Shown here one piece after another: positions 3,406 through 35,263 of a stretch of DNA of 43,954 nt; position 1 is the stretch's first letter, and each line of letters opens with the position of its first letter. The DNA is from Paludibacteraceae bacterium. Lineage in GTDB: Bacteria; Bacteroidota; Bacteroidia; Bacteroidales; Paludibacteraceae. The stretch spans positions 1 to 43,954 of the forward strand of contig JAKSNK010000013.1 in the NCBI GenBank assembly GCA_024399835.1, in the 5' to 3' direction. The notes under the pieces were generated by a model. It saw only the letters and a program-made list of their open reading frames with translations. It did not search any database and had not been told where the DNA came from. The translations under genes and the position numbers were made by a program.

Positions 3406-3730
3406 GTAATAATATTCCTAACAAGGTATATTGAAGTACGATAAGTATTTATTGAATCCATAATGAAGCCGATGTAATCAGCACATTTTTTCGTGCAACA
3501 ATGCAACAAATAGGGAGGCGATGAAATCGCCTGAAAAAGGACATAACATTTAGGGAAGAGGACGCGCCGAAGGCGCTACAGATTAGAGGACGCTACGCTA
3601 CAGTTTAGAGGGTGGAGAGAAAAAGAGATAATAAGTAAATCATTAAGCCGATGTAAAATATAATAGTTATGGCACGATTTGCAATTTTTTCAAAATCATT
3701 ATGTAACCCCCCAAAATAACCATCTTGACT
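3406..3730. other. Non-coding spacer with a cluster of short GAA-loop hairpins
   Basis: No convincing gene is seen here. The notable part is 3511-3611: hairpin AGGCGAT-gaa-ATCGCCT (3516-3532), hairpin GCGCC-gaa-GGCGC (3564-3576), and two near-identical 15-base direct repeats GCTACAG(A/T)TTAGAGG at 3575-3589 and 3597-3611, 22 bases apart. It resembles a small REP-like repeat tract and separates the nuclease operon from the replication module. Confidence 0.6.
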
Positions 3731-3985
3731 ATGGCATACCCACAACATATACAAACACTCATTGACCAAGGTCTCGCTTACGAGGACATGGACGGCAATG
3801 TGTGTCTCTATCCCGCTTACTGCGGCGCAGGAGGTATGCCAACTGTCAACATCGTGATTCAAACCAATTGCGGAAATACCTACAACACCTACAACACCTA
3901 CAACACTTACAATACTTACAATGTATATGGCGAACAATCGTCCGTAAACGATATACACGACAATACCAACCCCAAAATACACTAA
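3731..3985 (+). CDS. Small hypothetical protein with an Asn-Thr-Tyr repeat
   Basis: This 84-residue protein starts at ATG 3731; the in-frame TTG 3725 is less likely. It begins MAYPQHIQTLIDQGLAYEDM, has three cysteines, and carries five NTY repeats in its second half, ending in NVYGEQSSVNDIHDNTNPKI. The segment NDIHDNTN also occurs in the next gene, both in protein and in DNA, which points to a local duplication. Its stop is 2 bases before the next ATG. It is not recognised as a named family. Position at the head of the VapE module suggests a mobile-element accessory gene. Confidence 0.6.
   Translation: MAYPQHIQTLIDQGLAYEDMDGNVCLYPAYCGAGGMPTVNIVIQTNCGNTYNTYNTYNTYNTYNVYGEQSSVNDIHDNTNPKIH
3875..3919 (+). 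repeat. 9-base microsatellite, five units (AAYACYTAC)
   Basis: Five 9-base units AA(C/T)AC(C/T)TAC run in the reading frame and encode Asn-Thr-Tyr five times. Being a multiple of three, unit gain or loss would change length without breaking the frame. Confidence 0.9.
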
Positions 3986-4376: not shown

Positions 4377-4399
4377 GTATCACTTAAATGCTTTCTATT

Positions 4400-4633
4400 A
4401 TGGCAAAGAGTAAAAATTTTTCCAAGTTTCAACAGGCACTGTTTACGAGAAGTGCCAAGATGATGAGTTACGAACTGCGCACCCGTCGCGACGATTGGGA
4501 GATGGAACATGAGTATGTAACACGCAAAGCCAAACACCAGCACCGAAAAATCTATCGGCGCACCTGCAACTACTGCATGCACAGCTGCTATCAGGAACTG
4601 TTGGTCGAACTGCAAGCATACCTGCGCTCATGA
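4400..4633 (+). CDS. Small basic protein preceding the VapE-like gene
   Basis: The product is 77 residues from ATG 4400 (MAKSKNFSKF...); ATG 4388 would add four residues. It is strongly basic (RTRRDDWE, TRKAKHQHRKIYRRT) with a CNYCMHSCY cysteine group (C-x2-C-x3-C) that might bind metal. No family is recognised. Its stop overlaps the ATG of the VapE-like gene (4630-4633), so the two are translationally coupled. A role as a DNA-binding partner of the replication ATPase is plausible but unproven. Confidence 0.6.
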   Translation: MAKSKNFSKFQQALFTRSAKMMSYELRTRRDDWEMEHEYVTRKAKHQHRKIYRRTCNYCMHSCYQELLVELQAYLRS

Positions 4634-5730
4634 ACAAGATTGAGTTCATTCAGCACTACTTGGAGGAGAACTATGCGTACTGCTTGCGGTACGACATAGT
4701 TTCCGACAAGCTGGAAGTGAAAATCGAAGGCGGCAAATTGAATGTTACCGATGGCGGCGTATGGCGCGAGATGACCAAGCGCGACATCAACAGCATCGTC
4801 TGCGCGTGCTGCGAGGAGAGCGGCATGAACATATCCGACCGCGAAGTGCGATGCGTATTGCAGTCCGACTACATCCCCACCGTTCATCCACCTCGCGCTT
4901 ACCTCGACCACCTGCCCGCCTACAAGCCCGTACAAGGGCAGACACCGTTGGACTACCTCGCTTCGCAAGTAATTGTAGAAGGTGGGGACGAGGAGCAAAA
5001 ACTCTGGCACGACACTTTTATCCGCTGGTTTGTGGCAATGGTAGCGAGTTGGCGCAGCGACGAGGTGGTTAACCAGCATGTCCTCGTGCTCATAGGTCCG
5101 CAGGGTATCTACAAGACGACTTGGTTGGAACGGTTGATTCCTCCGTGCTTGCGTCCCTACAGCATGAAGATGGCGAATGTGCGCGACCTGAACAAGGACG
5201 AACGCTTGCGCATAGCCGAGAGCGTGCTCATTAACATGGACGAGATAGACAGCATGAGCGACCGCGAACTCAACCAGATGAAGTCCCTCATCACCTCCGC
5301 CGATGTGAACGAAAGGGCTGCTTACGGCTACAACAAAGAGCGCCGCACCCGTCTGGCATCGTTCTGCGCCAGCGGCAACAAAGACCAGTTCCTGACCGAC
5401 ACGACGGGCAACAGACGCTGGTTGCCGTTTCGTGTGAAGAGCATACAGAACCCCTATCGTAATCCCTTGCAGCCCTACGAGATGTACTACGCGCAGGCGG
5501 TATGGATGATAGAGCACGGCTTTGAGTACTGGTTTGACCAAGAGCAGATACAAGAGTTGGCACCTCATGTGGAGAGTTTTCACAAGGAGACGAGCGAGGA
5601 ACAGTTGCTGCCTGTTTATTATGCGCCGGCGAGTAAAGACACACCCGATGCGGTGTTCCGTACCGCTGCCGAAATCAGCGCACGATTGTCCTACTTGGGC
5701 AATATCCGTCAGCCGATGGCACTCAGCTAA
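4630..5730 (+). CDS. VapE-like (virulence-associated E) P-loop ATPase, frameshifted near the 3' end
   Basis: The 366-residue frame carries the core of the VapE family, superfamily-3-like helicase/ATPases that act in replication of phages and genomic islands. Visible motifs: YLDHLPAY and DYLASQV upstream of the core, Walker A IGPQGIYKTTW (about 156-166), the acidic Walker B-like INMDEIDSM, the sensor-like SLITSADV, and CASGNKDQFLTDTTGNRRWL (about 250-270). After RLSYLGNIRQPMAL the frame ends at TAA 5728-5730, but the adjacent frame continues with NLGKLLQREGYLQKRC...VRKYVV, the small C-terminal domain typical of Bacteroidales homologues, up to TGA 5864-5866. A single-base change near 5715-5725 therefore seems to have cut off about 45 residues. 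The gene overlaps the upstream small gene by 4 bases. Confidence 0.85.
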   Translation: MNKIEFIQHYLEENYAYCLRYDIVSDKLEVKIEGGKLNVTDGGVWREMTKRDINSIVCACCEESGMNISDREVRCVLQSDYIPTVHPPRAYLDHLPAYKPVQGQTPLDYLASQVIVEGGDEEQKLWHDTFIRWFVAMVASWRSDEVVNQHVLVLIGPQGIYKTTWLERLIPPCLRPYSMKMANVRDLNKDERLRIAESVLINMDEIDSMSDRELNQMKSLITSADVNERAAYGYNKERRTRLASFCASGNKDQFLTDTTGNRRWLPFRVKSIQNPYRNPLQPYEMYYAQAVWMIEHGFEYWFDQEQIQELAPHVESFHKETSEEQLLPVYYAPASKDTPDAVFRTAAEISARLSYLGNIRQPMALS

Positions 5731-5866
5731 TTTAGGCAAGTTGTTACAAAGAGAAGGATATTTACAAAAACGCTGTACAGGTGGCGTTCGTAAATATGTT
5801 GTTCGCGAATTACAGAATACCGCTGCCGAGAAAGAATATGAAATACAACAACTACGAACAGAGTGA
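5723..5866 (+). other. Out-of-frame C-terminal domain of the VapE-like protein
   Basis: In the +2 frame this stretch encodes SANLGKLLQREGYLQKRC, then TGGVRKYVVREL and a charged helix ending QQLRTE. The winged-helix-like pattern LGKLLxxxGYxxKR...YVV fits the end of VapE-family proteins. It has no start of its own and makes sense only as the displaced tail of the preceding frame. Its stop codon overlaps the first iteron of the putative origin. Confidence 0.65.
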
Positions 5867-5971
5867 CAGGAGTGACAGAGGGACAGCAAGTTCTTATAAT
5901 ATATATAATCCTCGTGCGTAGGGGTATATATACAAATTATATAAAACTGCTGTCACTGCTGTCCCTGTCAC
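5863..5971. other. Putative replication origin: inverted iteron sets flanking an AT-rich tract
   Basis: The left set has GTGACAG (5863-5869), GTGACAG (5872-5878) and GGGACAGCA (5880-5888). The right set is the same in reverse: TGCTGTCAC (5948-5956), TGCTGTCCC (5957-5965) and CTGTCAC (5965-5971). Between them lie 59 bases (5889-5947), about 75 percent A/T, with ATATATAAT and GTATATATAC. Iteron sets on both sides of an AT-rich tract just behind a helicase/initiator gene is the layout known from SaPI-type islands. Confidence 0.55.
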
Positions 5972-6006
5972 TATACATTTATTCCAAATTAAACAAGATT
6001 TTAACC

Positions 6007-6576
6007 ATGACGATAGACAATCAATTTATCAAAGAACATGCGTATATTGTGCGCACGATAGCGCGACAGTACGGCAAAGTAAACAATCAACGAGAAGACT
6101 TGCTGCAGGAGGGCTATATAGGGCTCATCGAAGCAGCCAAGCGGTACGACCCGACGACAGGGGTACAGTTTGCCTCCTACGCCTCATGGTGGGTACGCAA
6201 GTACATACGAGAATACATGCTAAATAACAGCCAGATTGTCCGGCTGCCTGCCAAGACGAAGGACTACTACAAACCCCTGACTGAAGACATCGAAACACCT
6301 TTGTATGAAGAAGAAGGCGATGTGATTCGCTATGCGGACATACTGACAGATGGCACAACAGCCGAAACAGACCTCATCCGGCAGGAGGAACACCAACGGC
6401 TAATGGATATGATAGAGAAACTATCCCCCAGAGAGCAGCAGATAATCCAGCAGATATACGGTATTGACTGCGAAGCCGTGCCGATGAAAGAGGTTGCAAA
6501 GAGAATGGGGCTGTCGTATGACCGAGTGAAGAAAATCCACGCGAAATGTCTCAGGAAGTTGAGCAAAGGTTGTTAG
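6007..6576 (+). CDS. Element-borne sigma-70 family RNA polymerase sigma factor
   Basis: From ATG 6007 the product is 189 residues. Region 2 is clear at about 32-85: EDLLQEGYIGLIEAAKRYDP, FASYASWWVRKYIREYM, and then the RpoD-like VRLPAKTKDYYKPL. Region 4 follows at about 135-187: LSPREQQIIQQIYGID and the helix-turn-helix VAKRMGLSYDRVKKIHAKCLRKL. Region 1 is absent and region 3 is short, so it is a minimal primary-like factor, not an ECF type. It lies 35 bases after the putative origin and has no Bacteroidota promoter of its own that I can see. It may direct transcription of the element's genes. The frame is open upstream to 5863, but the upstream residues (IYIILVRRG...) do not look like sigma sequence. 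Confidence 0.88.
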   Translation: MTIDNQFIKEHAYIVRTIARQYGKVNNQREDLLQEGYIGLIEAAKRYDPTTGVQFASYASWWVRKYIREYMLNNSQIVRLPAKTKDYYKPLTEDIETPLYEEEGDVIRYADILTDGTTAETDLIRQEEHQRLMDMIEKLSPREQQIIQQIYGIDCEAVPMKEVAKRMGLSYDRVKKIHAKCLRKLSKGC

Positions 6577-8842: not shown

Positions 8843-9418
8843 TTATTTTTTTACCATGCTTGCTAAATCAAAAAACATAGGGATAGTGGCTTCTTTATCT
8901 TCAATTTTCTCTGCTATCATGCGGATAAACCCATTCTTCTCATAAAAACGCAATGTTTGGTCGCAATTCATAGCATCTACTGTCAATAATCGACAACCAA
9001 AGGTAGGATTTACTGCATACTGATATTTTAATCCTGAAATAATCAATTCCCCAAGATGAATATCACAATTATTGGCATTCTGATAATCCTTATCCACAGC
9101 AAGACGACCAATTTTCATCGCAGGCATACTGGTATATTGATAATCTATTTTGCGTTTTAATCTATCCCGCAACGAACGTTTAATAGGGTCAACCTTGGTA
9201 TCTACACGGTCTGTTAATATACTGTAATAGGCAATTACTCGTTGGGCATGAAGCAGAACATAAGTGACACTCATCTTGTTTTTGTAGTCATTCAGGGCAT
9301 TCTCTTTCAAATATCCATTCAAGTCATCTACACCACAATCAAAAGTGGACACATCTATCTTATCATCCAACTGACGAAGGACGATTTCGGAACTCTTTAT
9401 AGGCACTATCATACTCAT
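8843..9418 (-). CDS. GNAT-family acetyltransferase, putative toxin of a TA pair
   Basis: The 191-residue protein matches the TacT/AtaT-like GNAT layout: FDCGVDDLNGYL near the start, VIAYYSILTD, MKIGRLAVDKDYQ (beta 4 and the acetyl-CoA region), and TLRFYEKNGFIRM with Tyr159, the usual catalytic tyrosine. Such toxins acetylate charged aminoacyl-tRNA. Oddly, the expected glycine-rich acetyl-CoA loop after DYQ (Q/R-x-x-G-x-G/A) reads NANNCDIHLGE, so cofactor binding may be weakened. The gene overlaps the upstream antitoxin-like gene by 4 bases. Confidence 0.75.
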   Translation of the reverse strand: MSMIVPIKSSEIVLRQLDDKIDVSTFDCGVDDLNGYLKENALNDYKNKMSVTYVLLHAQRVIAYYSILTDRVDTKVDPIKRSLRDRLKRKIDYQYTSMPAMKIGRLAVDKDYQNANNCDIHLGELIISGLKYQYAVNPTFGCRLLTVDAMNCDQTLRFYEKNGFIRMIAEKIEDKEATIPMFFDLASMVKK

Positions 9419-9567
9419 TGAGCCATCGTCTGCATCATGTGATAGGCAGACTCACATGCTTGATAAGACTCTTGAGAAATAGGTTGGGCAGGGGTGTGCA
9501 TCTTGGTTAGGAATGCTTCCGCATTCTTCCCTGTTAGAGTTGGTGTTACAGAGATAGGTTTTGCCAT
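9415..9567 (-). CDS. Putative antitoxin partner of the GNAT protein
   Basis: The product is 50 residues from the internal ATG at 9567 (MAKPISVTPTLTGKNAEAFL...); the longer frame from 9597 has an unlikely N-terminus. MAKPI-x-x-TP-x-L-x-GKxAEAFLxKM is a pattern I associate with small Bacteroidota proteins encoded just before GNAT toxins, and the C-terminal part (ESYQACESAYHMMQTMAQ) would form a helix able to wrap a partner. The stop overlaps the toxin start (ATGA). A good promoter stands 41 bases upstream. Confidence 0.65.
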   Translation of the reverse strand: MAKPISVTPTLTGKNAEAFLTKMHTPAQPISQESYQACESAYHMMQTMAQ

Positions 9568-9607
9568 AATTGTACTTGTTTTTAGTTCACTTTGCAACTT
9601 CGAGCTG

Positions 9608-9639: not shown

Positions 9640-9709
9640 CTTTTTTCACTTTTTTGGGGTGCTCTAAGCACTTTTTGCAAAAAAATGTAACCCCTTTTTG
9701 AAAAAAGTT
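9638..9709. repeat. AT-rich imperfect palindrome upstream of the TA promoter
   Basis: AACTTTTTTCA (9638-9648) is the exact reverse complement of TGAAAAAAGTT (9699-9709); inside are GGGGT (9656-9660)/ACCCC (9690-9694) and GTGCT-cta-AGCAC. It touches the -33 box of the TA operon and could serve as a terminator or an operator. Confidence 0.65.
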
Positions 9710-9745
9710 CGTAATCAGAATAATAGAGGGGGCATGCAAAAGGAG

Positions 9746-9789
9746 CCGACCTTTGACCGACCTTTGACCGACACTTGACCGACCCTTGT
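9746..9789. repeat. 11-base tandem repeat, four units (CCGACCTTTGA type)
   Basis: Units are CCGACCTTTGA, CCGACCTTTGA, CCGACACTTGA and CCGACCCTTGT, with exact 11-base period. On the other strand the pattern is TCAAAGGTCGG, related to the TCGACCGTCGG repeat at 19082-19114. Confidence 0.9.
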
Positions 9790-9805
9790 TCTGCCCGAAA
9801 AACAT

Positions 9806-9817: not shown

Positions 9818-9875
9818 CTCTAAACTCTAAATTCTTTTCTCTTAATTCAAAATTCAAAATTAACCTTTAACTTTT

Positions 9876-10220
9876 ATGTCCAAACATTTCAGTAAGACCG
9901 AATTTGAGTATCCGGTTCACCGCATCTGCGGAAAAATCAGCCGCAAGAGCAAAGTGGTGCACCGATGTACCCCAAGCGGCAAGTTCATCACTTATCTGCA
10001 AGGCGAACGCAACTTGGTAGCCCATCCCGTCACGCAAGCCGAGTTGGACCGCCGAACCGCCTTCAAGACGCGTCAGGCATTGGTTGCCGCCCGACTGGAG
10101 AAAACCGCCACTACCTACGCTACCGACATGGCTGCCTACCGTGCGCAGTACGCCACCGGCTACAAATCCTTCACCAAGTACCTTTGGGCACAGGTGATGG
10201 CAGACGAGACAGCCGACTAA
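9876..10220 (+). CDS. Small basic hypothetical protein, paralogue of the next gene
   Basis: The 114-residue protein begins MSKHFSKTEFEYPVHRICGK and is strongly basic in its first half (SRKSKVVHRCTPSGK). It shares the framework GERN-x-V-x-HP-x-T, (R)TAF-x-TRQALVAAR, a helical D-x-AAYRAQ segment and Y-x-KYLW with the neighbour at 10526, so the two are tandem paralogues. The family is not recognised. No signal peptide or membrane segment. A stretch of AT-rich leader precedes it, including the 11-base tandem repeats. The first bases after the stop (GCGGAAG) are also shared with the paralogue. Confidence 0.65.
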   Translation: MSKHFSKTEFEYPVHRICGKISRKSKVVHRCTPSGKFITYLQGERNLVAHPVTQAELDRRTAFKTRQALVAARLEKTATTYATDMAAYRAQYATGYKSFTKYLWAQVMADETAD

Positions 10221-10525: not shown

Positions 10526-10873
10526 ATGGCATCAATCAAATGGAAGTACCCCATCGAGAGCGTTCATGGGGCGTTAAAAAAGAAAGTATTCGGCGCAGCA
10601 ATGCGCAAGTCAAAAAACGCAAAGGGTGAGCAGCCCAACTTCTCCGTACAATACGGCGAACGCGACATGGTCAACCACCCGCTAACCGCCGGCGAAACCG
10701 CTGCACGCGAGCGCTTTGCTGCTATCCGCGCTTTGGTTGCCGACCGCAAGGACGACTCCACCAAGCGCGCACAAGACCAAGCCGCCTTCAAGGCACAATC
10801 GACCTACTCAACCCTCAACGCGTACCTGTGGCATGTGTGCGGAGAGGAGTACGACAGCGCACAGGACGATTAA
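10526..10873 (+). CDS. Small basic hypothetical protein, paralogue of the previous gene
   Basis: The 115-residue protein (MASIKWKYPIESVHGALKKK...) aligns by eye with the 9876-10220 product: V-x-GERDMVNHPLT, ERFAAIRALVADR, DQAAFKAQ and Y-x-LNAYLW. The N-terminal half is basic, which would suit nucleic-acid binding, but this is a guess. It starts at the ATG that follows an AATTAACTAATTAAC-type spacer common in Bacteroidales. The 37-residue peptide gene follows 55 bases later in the same direction, before a terminator. Confidence 0.65.
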   Translation: MASIKWKYPIESVHGALKKKVFGAAMRKSKNAKGEQPNFSVQYGERDMVNHPLTAGETAARERFAAIRALVADRKDDSTKRAQDQAAFKAQSTYSTLNAYLWHVCGEEYDSAQDD

Positions 10874-10928: not shown

Positions 10929-11042
10929 ATGAAGGAAGAAAATAAACAGACATTGTGGACATTCCTGTTGGAAATATTGCGGATAGTATTCACCATAGGC
11001 AGCAAGCATGTGGAGAAAGACCGCAACGACAAGGAAGAGTAA
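10929..11042 (+). CDS. 37-residue peptide with one hydrophobic helix
   Basis: ATG 10929 to TAA 11040-11042 encodes MKEENKQTLWTFLLEILRIV, then FTIGSKHVEKDRNDKEE. A charged start, a hydrophobic helix of about 16 residues and a charged tail resemble the tiny membrane-associated 'smalltalk'-type peptides found in Bacteroidales accessory regions, but the match is only in shape. A strong terminator begins 8 bases after the stop, so it is the last gene of the transcript. Confidence 0.55.
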   Translation: MKEENKQTLWTFLLEILRIVFTIGSKHVEKDRNDKEE

Positions 11043-33082: not shown

Positions 33083-35263
33083 TTAATTGCCTAAGTCGGA
33101 GTGGAACTTGATACGCACCAAACGGACATGCAACTCGTCATAATCGTCTTCCCCTAATTCCTGCATGGCTAATTTGATGCTGTCATTTTCTGCGTTCTTA
33201 AAGTAATCGATGATTTCTTCCTTTTCATCGGGATCTACCACCTCGTCAATGAAATAATTGATATTGAGTTTAGTGCCGCTATAGACGATGGCTTCTATCT
33301 CCTCCAACATTTCTTCCATTGACATACCTTTACTTTCTGCCAAGTCGTCCAACGCTACACGACGGTCGATGGCTTGAATAATGCTGATTTTTCCCGATGA
33401 ATCTTTGGCTTTTGTATGGAAGCGCAAATCTTCGGGACGGATAATCTCGTTTTCATCAACATATTCTTTGATTACCTTCAGAAATTCTTCTCCGTAGCGT
33501 TTGGCTTTACCTGCACCGACTCCCGGAATGTTCTGTATTTCTTCGAAAGTAATCGGGTACGAAGTCGCCATTGCTTCCAGTGAGGGGTCTTGGAATATAA
33601 CGAATGGAGGAACATCCAGTTTCTTGCTCAGTTTTTTGCGTATATCCTTCAATATGGCAAATAGTACCTCGTCTGCGGCAGCGCTGCCGATCATGGCTGC
33701 TTCCATTTCCTCCTCTTCTTCATCGTGCACTTCAATAGGCACTTCAAATCGGGATGAGCGTTTTAGCCATTTATGTCCTTCCGGCGTGATTTTTAGGTCT
33801 CCGTATGACTCGATGTCTTTTTTGATATATCCGGCTAACATGGCTTGCCGGATTATGGCATGTAGCACATTCTCGTCCTCGTCTTCACCGCTTCCGAAAG
33901 TCTCCAGGTCGTTGTGATTATAAGTGCGGACATCCGCTGTCATATTGCCGTGAATAATATCCACAATATGGTCCGCGTGGAAATGCTCGCTCAATTGCAG
34001 AATGGTCTCCATAACGATGCCGAGCAGTTCACTTTCGTCCACCATGCGATATTGCTTTTTGCAGTTATCGCAATTGCCGCAGTTGTCATTGTTGTAGTCT
34101 TCACCGAAATAGTGCAAGAGCAATCGGCGACGGCAAATGGTTGATTCGGCATATCCTTGTGTCTCCAATAGCAGTTGGTTGCCAATCTCCAATTCGTTGC
34201 CTAATTTGCTTTGTTGGAACTTGCGCAGACGGTCGATGTCTTTCGGTGAATAGAAGCAAATACATTGTCCTTCGCCTCCGTCGCGCCCTGCACGCCCGGT
34301 CTCCTGATAATATCCTTCCAGCGATTTGGGAATGTCGTAGTGTACTACAAACCGTACATCGGGTTTGTCTATCCCCATTCCGAAGGCAATCGTGGCAACG
34401 ATGACCTGGCATTGTTCCATCAGGAAAGCGTCTTGATTGGCGGTCCTTGTTGCTGCTTCCATGCCGGCATGGTAGGGCAGGGCAGAGATGCCGTTCACGC
34501 GAAGAGTCTCCGATAAATCTTCCACTTCTTTCCGTGCAAGACAATATACAATGCCGGATTTGCCGTTCATTGAACGGATGTATCGAATCAGGTCTTTATC
34601 CACATCGTCTGTTTTTGGACGAACTTCGTAATACAAATTAGGACGGTTAAAACTGGATTTGAATACTTTGGCGTCCAACATCCCCAAGTTCTTTTGTATG
34701 TCGTGCTGCACTTTTGGGGTGGCAGTAGCAGTAAGTGCCACAATCGGCGCTTTGCCAATTCGCTCGGTCATATCCTGGATATTCCGGTATTCAGGACGAA
34801 AATCGTGTCCCCATTCAGAGATACAATGCGCTTCGTCCACTGCATAAAAACTGACATGGATACCTCGTAAGAAGTCGATGTTTTCGGTCTTGTTCAGCGA
34901 CTCCGGTGCCAAATAGAGCAGTTTGGTCTTTCCCGACAGGATATCTTCTTTCACGGCTGCTATTTCCGGACGGGAGAGGGATGAATTGATAAAATGCGCC
35001 ACTCCGTCTTCTTCCGAGTAGTTGCGCATGGCATCTACTTGGTTCTTCATCAGCGCAATCAATGGGCTCACCACAACTGCAACTCCGTCCATTAGCAAGG
35101 ATGGAAGTTGATAGCACAAACTTTTTCCTCCACCGGTCGGCATTAGTACAAAGGTGTTGTTCCCGGACAATATATTCATAATAATGTCCTCTTGATTGCC
35201 CTTGAACTTGTCAAAACCGAAATGGTATTGCAATGCTGTAATTAGTTCTTCGTGTGTAATCAT
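33083..35263 (-). CDS. recQ: ATP-dependent DNA helicase RecQ
   Basis: Start at ATG 35263 (MITHEELITALQYHFGFDKF), 726 residues; a longer open frame upstream covers the promoter. Motifs in order: FKGNQEDII (Q motif), VLMPTGGGKSLCYQLP (Walker A), YAVDEAHCISEWGHDFRPEY, ALTATATPKV, YHAGMEA, VATIAFGMGIDKPDVRFVVH, YYQETGRAGRDG; then the zinc site CRRRLLLHYFGE...CGNCDNC, the RQC winged helix, and an HRDC domain (VPPFVIFQDPSLEAMAT, NIPGVGAGKAKRYGEEFL). An extra C-terminal part of about 100 residues (KGMSMEEMLEEIEAIV) is usual in Bacteroidota. RecQ unwinds DNA in recombination and fork repair. It is the first gene of the minus-strand run. Confidence 0.95.
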   Translation of the reverse strand: MITHEELITALQYHFGFDKFKGNQEDIIMNILSGNNTFVLMPTGGGKSLCYQLPSLLMDGVAVVVSPLIALMKNQVDAMRNYSEEDGVAHFINSSLSRPEIAAVKEDILSGKTKLLYLAPESLNKTENIDFLRGIHVSFYAVDEAHCISEWGHDFRPEYRNIQDMTERIGKAPIVALTATATPKVQHDIQKNLGMLDAKVFKSSFNRPNLYYEVRPKTDDVDKDLIRYIRSMNGKSGIVYCLARKEVEDLSETLRVNGISALPYHAGMEAATRTANQDAFLMEQCQVIVATIAFGMGIDKPDVRFVVHYDIPKSLEGYYQETGRAGRDGGEGQCICFYSPKDIDRLRKFQQSKLGNELEIGNQLLLETQGYAESTICRRRLLLHYFGEDYNNDNCGNCDNCKKQYRMVDESELLGIVMETILQLSEHFHADHIVDIIHGNMTADVRTYNHNDLETFGSGEDEDENVLHAIIRQAMLAGYIKKDIESYGDLKITPEGHKWLKRSSRFEVPIEVHDEEEEEMEAAMIGSAAADEVLFAILKDIRKKLSKKLDVPPFVIFQDPSLEAMATSYPITFEEIQNIPGVGAGKAKRYGEEFLKVIKEYVDENEIIRPEDLRFHTKAKDSSGKISIIQAIDRRVALDDLAESKGMSMEEMLEEIEAIVYSGTKLNINYFIDEVVDPDEKEEIIDYFKNAENDSIKLAMQELGEDDYDELHVRLVRIKFHSDLGN

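Follow-up and report, generated by a model that had tools for sequence, protein, structure and literature searches.

Behind a gene for a VapE-type helicase in a Paludibacteraceae bacterium (contig JAKSNK010000013.1, analysed over 43,954 bases and called here the window) lies a short cluster of mirrored repeats, which raises the question of whether these repeats are the origin from which that helicase starts replication. An earlier note, made from the letters alone, had taken them for iterons laid out as in Staphylococcus aureus pathogenicity islands (SaPIs). We put at roughly 85% the probability that positions 5863-5971 are the replication origin of the hexameric, self-loading VapE-type helicase encoded upstream, and that its repeat words change together with the residues that would read them. 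At the level of sequence, this is carried by the layout, its recurrence, the covariation of its two arms, the covariation with a reading segment of VapE and the predicted fold. Loci, genomes and contigs are designated by L, G and C numbers; the window is contig C5 of G000, a draft genome of 1.76 Mb that is 85% complete.

A mirrored array behind an interrupted VapE gene

4630-5730, plus strand: VapE helicase frame, 366 amino acids (PF05272, E 2e-31; phrog_1313 DNA helicase, E 4e-41)
5728-5866, plus strand: part of VapE that forms the DNA-reading winged helix, here in another frame than the helicase; open in the second copy L002
5863-5886, plus strand: left iteron array (GTGACAG 5863-5869, GTGACAG 5872-5878, GGGACAG 5880-5886)
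5889-5949, no strand: spacer of 61 bases, 74% A+T (AT block, G+C core at 5910-5924, AT block)
5950-5971, minus strand: right iteron array (GTGACAG 5950-5956, GGGACAG 5959-5965, GTGACAG 5965-5971)

The cluster is genuine and lies far beyond chance expectation. Positions 5863-5971 contain six G[TG]GACAG words, three on each strand, and these 109 bases hold 6 of the 11 such sites in the entire window, whereas the maximum per 110 bases in 300 dinucleotide-shuffled windows was 2 (30 times) or 1 (270 times). The third plus-strand word reads GGGACAG(C), and the last two minus-strand sites overlap at base 5965. An unbiased scan for mirrored 7-mer arrays also ranks this stretch first in the window with a score of 38, a narrow lead over two runners-up of AT-rich words at 35236 and 9571 (score 36).

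Site positions and shuffles thus bear out what the earlier note had said of three words per side in opposite orientation. The intervening tract, described there as 59 bases with 75% A/T, is indeed AT-rich; it measures 61 bases with 74% A+T, however, and a G+C-rich core, CCTCGTGCGTAGGGG (5910-5924), splits it in the middle. Only 2.7% of 61-base windows are equally A+T-rich. Tandem direct repeats and an AT-rich region beside an initiator gene, the hallmarks of an iteron-type origin, are present.

The repeats do lie downstream of the VapE gene, as proposed, but the helicase frame ends at 5730, and it is another frame that reaches the first repeat, which its stop codon (5864-5866) overlaps. The VapE domain is clear (109 bits against a Pfam gathering cut-off of 25), and the frame stops before the winged helix is complete; in intact relatives VapE continues for some 40-60 residues beyond this point, completing it. 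A second VapE copy in the same genome, L002 on contig C16, is internally deleted and has kept its repeats, and its stretch matching the winged helix of the window is one open frame. Window positions 5725-5878 and L002 positions 1617-1770, covering the winged helix and the first two repeats, are identical over 154 bases, whereas the 39 residues that precede them are 67% identical. The identity reflects either recent gene conversion or an assembly join, and the window copy of VapE would therefore be a recombinant whose frame was broken, or else a product of assembly. Because helicase and winged helix lie in different frames, this copy may have lost its activity, may depend on another VapE or may be an assembly error. 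Five other loci (L078, L079, L082, L083 and L085) match VapE over its C-terminus only and then run into repeats, as judged by hit length. These and L002 look like internally deleted derivatives, the deletion being established for L002 and indicated by hit length only for the others.

Two named relatives of the VapE protein are L032 (80% identical) and L033 (53%), both from Paludibacteraceae metagenome-assembled genomes of horse faeces. An AlphaFold model of L032 was built on a 12-sequence alignment, with a predicted local distance difference test (pLDDT) score of 83, in place of a single-sequence prediction that gave 33. It puts the recognition helix (the second helix) at residues 364-373 and the wing in strands 377-381 and 386-393. 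The best fold match of the model is PriRep1 with double-stranded DNA, and the predicted VapE fold is well supported as that of the replication helicase of phage-inducible chromosomal islands (PICIs).

Recurrence of the layout

VapE 3' ends were gathered from genomes of the genus (57 of 178 with a VapE match) and a few of the order; a single scan of genome contigs gave 2 loci. A stop followed by at least 110 bases was found in 72 ends, and 62 remained, the window included, after removal of near-duplicates; ends with no stop, with fewer than 110 bases behind it or nearly duplicating another were left out. Each was scored for mirrored 7-mer arrays behind the VapE stop, with the 99th percentile of shuffles (24) as threshold. 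The mean score was 30.3; shuffles averaged 6.1, and the 313 other gene ends taken from 22 long loci averaged 6.8, 6 of these ends reaching the VapE median of 31. The threshold was exceeded by 48 of the 62 VapE ends, so that the repeats are not absent behind close VapE relatives, the outcome that would have spoken against the earlier note. Each side has two or three units, in most cases spaced by 8-9 bases, and in several elements the left array lies within the last vapE codons (...IADSADSIF in L003, ...GVDGVGGVDIF in L036).

The layout recurs and its letters differ. The words include GTGACAG, GGGTGAC, GGCTGAC, GGCGGAC, GGACAGC, TGAACAG, TGACCAG, TGCACAG, GTTACAG, GTGTAAC, ATCCAGC, TAGACAG, GTGGCAG, TGGTGTA, AATGACG, GATGCGT and GCCATCA, and those of L011, L005 and L014 are GGGACAGCA, GGTGACGG and GTGTGGCA, respectively. 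Single linkage of 47 loci gives 2, 6, 9 and 14 word groups at scores 7, 8, 9 and 10; the number depends on the cut, 14 being that of the strictest one tried. Within an element the two arms nevertheless match each other: their longest exact inverted match averages 12.03 bases, against a mean of 6.72 (standard deviation 0.22, maximum 7.73) when arms are dealt among elements 20,000 times. The spacers of these 47 loci average only 63% A+T and follow the pattern of AT, G+C core and AT, with G+C fractions by tenths of.33,.18,.20,.54,.67,.57,.40,.20,.20 and.39, and with CGCG or GCGC in 30 of them. Spacers with a CGCGCG-type core also separate the arrays of L194 and L213, two distant viral contigs from IMG/VR.

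Outside the genus the same score was applied to a slightly longer region. Clear arrays there include those of L126, L117, L178, L180, L194 and L213. In IMG/VR a scan with a single protein found no relative; a scan with an alignment gave 200 matches, and among the 80 retained the top 10 had 27-33% identity.

Covariation of the repeats with the VapE reading segment

There were 48 clear arrays, 46 with a usable C-terminus, 40 with a usable helicase and 39 with both; spacer and tail were also usable in 33. The window was excluded from this test, its winged helix not being in the helicase frame, and L015, L062 and L063 were excluded by hand, their top word lying outside a tandem array.

Among the 39 loci, iteron similarity follows the C-terminal domain with control for the helicase (0.29, p 0.0005) and, with control for the C-terminus, does not follow the helicase (-0.01, p 0.61). 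In a scan of alignment columns the strongest were column 46 (0.40) and column 59 (0.32). Sixteen columns had p <= 0.002, and 8 of them (46, 51, 53, 54, 57, 59, 60 and 62) map to where the second helix ends and to the strand and turn after it. In regression this reading segment carries a weight of 0.52, the rest of the winged helix -0.03 and the helicase 0.07; with spacer and tail residues added (33 loci) the segment carries 0.55 and the spacer 0.25 (p 0.008), the others nothing. Pairs of elements make the same point. In 23 pairs with helicases at least 90% identical and differing segments the word score is 4.7, compared with 5.8 for average pairs, and in 8 pairs with similar segments it is 18.5. 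By eye, QSKR-IGKxG-TRGW goes with GGCTGAC (L049, L058), QSKR-IGKxR-TRGW with GGCGGAC (L037, L045) and QSKR-INHGK-RGW with GGGTGAC (L005, L010). Covariation of repeats with VapE proteins in related elements, a check that the earlier note had named, is thus found, and, on the sequences compared, such covariation within one genus is a stronger result than the origin-like structure itself.

Several points weigh against an origin matched to its own VapE. The window's own VapE frame is interrupted. Of the 62 VapE ends, 14 fall below the array threshold (in at least one of them, L080, because a broken frame misplaced the scanned region), L015 passes by way of another repeat nearby, and control gene ends have a higher 99th percentile (38) than the shuffles (24). 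Outside the genus the picture is patchier: 7 of 27 VapE loci at the order level pass the 99th percentile, as do 5 of 13 from IMG/VR, but none of 8 phage or plasmid records, so that VapE genes do not all have the mirrored layout, or have it in a looser form in other groups. As to covariation, the other 8 columns with p <= 0.002 (2, 3, 21, 24, 25, 37, 39 and 71) lie outside the segment, and nearest-neighbour prediction of the repeats succeeds in 25 of 39 loci by the segment, a modest gain over 21 by the helicase and 20 by the rest of the winged helix. Furthermore, the p values are lenient, since the limits of the segment (22 alignment columns) were set once the column scan had been run, on those same 39 loci, and these are related to one another.

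Alternative explanations of the repeats

The alternative that survives best, though an unlikely one, is that the repeats are an operator through which VapE or a co-encoded regulator controls the downstream genes, with no part in replication. Initiators often regulate through their iterons too, the gene for a sigma factor begins at 6007, 35 bases downstream, and in relatives the arrays are followed by small genes. Repression would not, however, need a VapE helicase with a self-loading relative, and mirrored arrays around AT blocks are the known layout of PICI origins.

We give still less credence to the inverted repeats acting as RNA, that is, as a 3' hairpin, terminator or attenuator behind vapE. 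The arms are complementary, could pair and stand at the 3' end of a gene; pairing alone, on the other hand, does not need each arm to be a tandem array of the same unit, and unit number or spacing differs between the sides in 27 of the 38 loci whose two sides each have at least two units. Moreover, no long T run is found at 5972-5980, and the letters follow the DNA-reading residues of VapE.

It is highly improbable that the correlation between VapE C-terminus and repeats is one of linkage only, neighbouring DNA having been exchanged in a single tract. Such exchange does occur, as the 154 bases shared by the window and L002 beside a 67%-identical stretch indicate, and spacer similarity retains its weight in the regression. 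Yet 9 of the 15 pairs with spacers at least 85% identical carry different repeats, and neither tail residues nor the rest of the winged helix add anything once the segment is included.

Scarcely tenable, too, is the end or attachment site of a transposable element: the contigs of L019, L064, L087, L037 and L065 stop some 92-140 bases behind the VapE stop, which suggests that shared sequence ends there, and the internally deleted copy retains its repeats, but shared element genes run on for kilobases beyond the repeats, and transposon ends would be unlikely to change letters with a helicase domain.

We thus return to the replication origin, for which we infer hexamer formation, binding, ring loading, melting and replication. 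The C-terminal winged helix of VapE would read the repeat units. Since the two arrays face each other, they would load two helicase rings head to head, and these would melt the AT blocks between the arrays and start bidirectional replication of the element. Repeat letters and reading residues, at the end of the recognition helix and in the wing, would change together, each element thereby having its own initiator-origin pair.

The surrounding element

695-768: tRNA-Ala gene
3725-3985, plus strand: leader open reading frame (ORF), 86 amino acids, with NTYNTYN repeats; start common to the deleted copy L002 (G000:C16)
4388-4633, plus strand: small basic ORF, 81 amino acids, family F10; precedes VapE also in L109 and L110
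6007-6576, plus strand: sigma-70-family factor, 189 amino acids, family F6; downstream of VapE also in L102, L109 and L110
9876-10220, plus strand: small protein; DNA at about 9861-10207 is 80-81% identical to L109 and L110, overlapping F1-family genes there
10526-10873, plus strand: another small protein, grouped by eye with the preceding one for its similar look

The leader ORF has no Pfam or PHROG match. The small protein at 9876-10220 probably belongs to the same element, and similarity to L109 runs out in short final matches that stop at 10,930 and 11,212. Before this gene a direct repeat tract of GACCGACCTTT-like units occupies 9750-9790, itself preceded by a stretch (9672-9742) conserved in L109 and L110. 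The minus strand at 8843-9597, after the proposed origin and before the two small genes (9876 and 10526), carries a gene for a GNAT-type acetyltransferase (phrog_1758); with a small ORF upstream of it, this gene looks like part of a toxin-antitoxin pair.

In the 22 loci with long flanks, including the window, the families behind VapE are F1 (17 loci), F2 (11), F3 (DUF5675; 8), F4 (7), F5 (6), the F6 sigma factor (4), the lipoprotein-like F9 (4) and the membrane protein F14 (3), with variable cargo between them. In front of VapE three relatives have a helix-turn-helix gene (F12) where the window has F10.

Cores of L091 and L095 are 86-96% identical and have different chromosomal neighbours, whereas L095 and L103 are different elements beside the same genes; like cores beside different genes, and different elements beside the same genes, suggest past mobility. 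The tyrosine-integrase, resolvase and relaxase families searched (PF00589, PF00239 and PF03432) have no match on the window contig. In G000 as a whole, 85% complete, PF00589 has two matches, on C16 and C11, and the other two families none. Among 12 other genomes searched, integrase, resolvase or relaxase matches do occur, none of them noted within 5 kb of a listed VapE gene by comparison of coordinates, the nearest noted being a resolvase about 6 kb from that of L042 in G115. With no match to the three searched families on the contig and the VapE frame interrupted, the autonomously replicating island of the earlier note finds no support here.

Of 21 long relative loci scanned, 4 have tRNA genes and 1 has a transfer-messenger RNA gene. 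The left flank (1-323) matches a gene start in G101, where reading continues (L143); this comparison yielded no clean empty site. A truncated gene start lies at 226-546, and a motif in it suggests that it is GH32-like. Partial copies of the nqrF 3' end (78 to 377 bases), some inverted, occur in or near VapE elements of several genomes, at the following positions:

L279 (G014:C8): 4585-4925 and 5168-5412
L280: 2543-2916
L282: 4059-4435
L284: 5775-5852
L290 and L291: further copies

They are suggestive of the nqrF 3' end as a repeatedly used insertion site.

Among genomes with at least two loci, the words differ by eye in 17 of the 18 listed, G000 being the exception; in G165 the co-resident words differ by one base, and two further genomes share words, G034 (L019/L087) and G148 (L039/L064). 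When pairs are matched for helicase identity, 0 of 4 within genomes share words compared with 40 of 183 between genomes, numbers too few to decide. That co-resident elements avoid shared repeats is suggestive only.

Comparison with known systems

In PICIs two iteron sets flank an AT-rich region directly behind the initiator gene (PMC6092414). The SaPI/PICI module, Rep or PriRep plus ori, shares with the present elements a VapE-type helicase with a C-terminal winged helix, an origin of this layout directly behind the gene (PMC6092414, PMC7581432) and the best fold match, PriRep1 with double-stranded DNA. The two iteron sets are found in the window, and a Rep-type helicase with a C-terminal DNA-binding domain on the L032 structure, the window frame being interrupted. 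Here, in contrast, no primase domain was found in the subset of window ORFs scanned against Pfam (PHROG 'primase' matches fall in the helicase part), the three searched mobility families have no match on the contig, a G+C core splits the AT region, and the host is a Paludibacteraceae-like Bacteroidales bacterium. Neither an integrase of the element's own (PF00589) nor a specific attachment site was found, in a genome 85% complete, and we do not claim PICI membership, because the searched mobility families were not found near VapE.

In the PICI-like elements (PLEs) of Vibrio, the initiator DNA-binding domain and the origin iterons covary as they do here, only cognate pairs function and modules have been swapped (PMC8263062). 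That initiator, however, is of the RepA_N family, described as having no predicted helicase activity (PMC7145576), its iterons are semi-palindromes of about 30 bp, and two specificity groups contrast with 14 word groups in 47 loci here (strictest cut). Cch2 of the staphylococcal cassette chromosome mec (SCCmec) is a self-loading helicase whose C-terminal domain binds short repeats located directly behind the gene that encodes it (PMC7581432), the bound repeats there being three 5-base direct repeats. The BT4734/BF3469-type cassette of Bacteroides (DUF4248 - VapE, with HU and amidase genes adjoining) resembles the present elements in its small genes and a nearby lysis-type gene (L167); it differs in that its VapE is 31% identical to that of L011 and no mirrored array passed behind the single example, L167.

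A SaPI-like layout read as an origin is thus well supported by recurrence, by the covariation of arms and VapE and by the PICI-helicase fold, and the earlier note saw a real origin-like structure and interpreted it mostly correctly. In a literature search of open-licence papers, nothing on iterons behind Bacteroidales VapE genes appeared in titles or the beginnings of abstracts.

Implications for the elements and their hosts

We also put forward, with slightly more doubt than belief, that one genus holds a large natural library of initiator-origin pairs (the 14 word groups of the strictest cut), each matched by a few VapE residues at the end of the recognition helix and in the wing. Their evolution would be so rapid that near-identical helicases (at least 90%) and spacers use unrelated words, and the two or three elements per chromosome would mostly use different ones, as if plasmid-like incompatibility or an origin-directed nuclease, such as that met by PLEs, drove the change, the elements spreading with no integrase of their own. 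If this is true, the PICI-type origin would extend to apparently integrase-less elements of gut Bacteroidales, and origin letters and reading residues would turn over together inside a single genus. The genus would then offer a ready data set for the recognition code of winged helices, and the drivers of origin diversification, whether incompatibility between co-resident elements or attack directed at the origin, would become directly testable.
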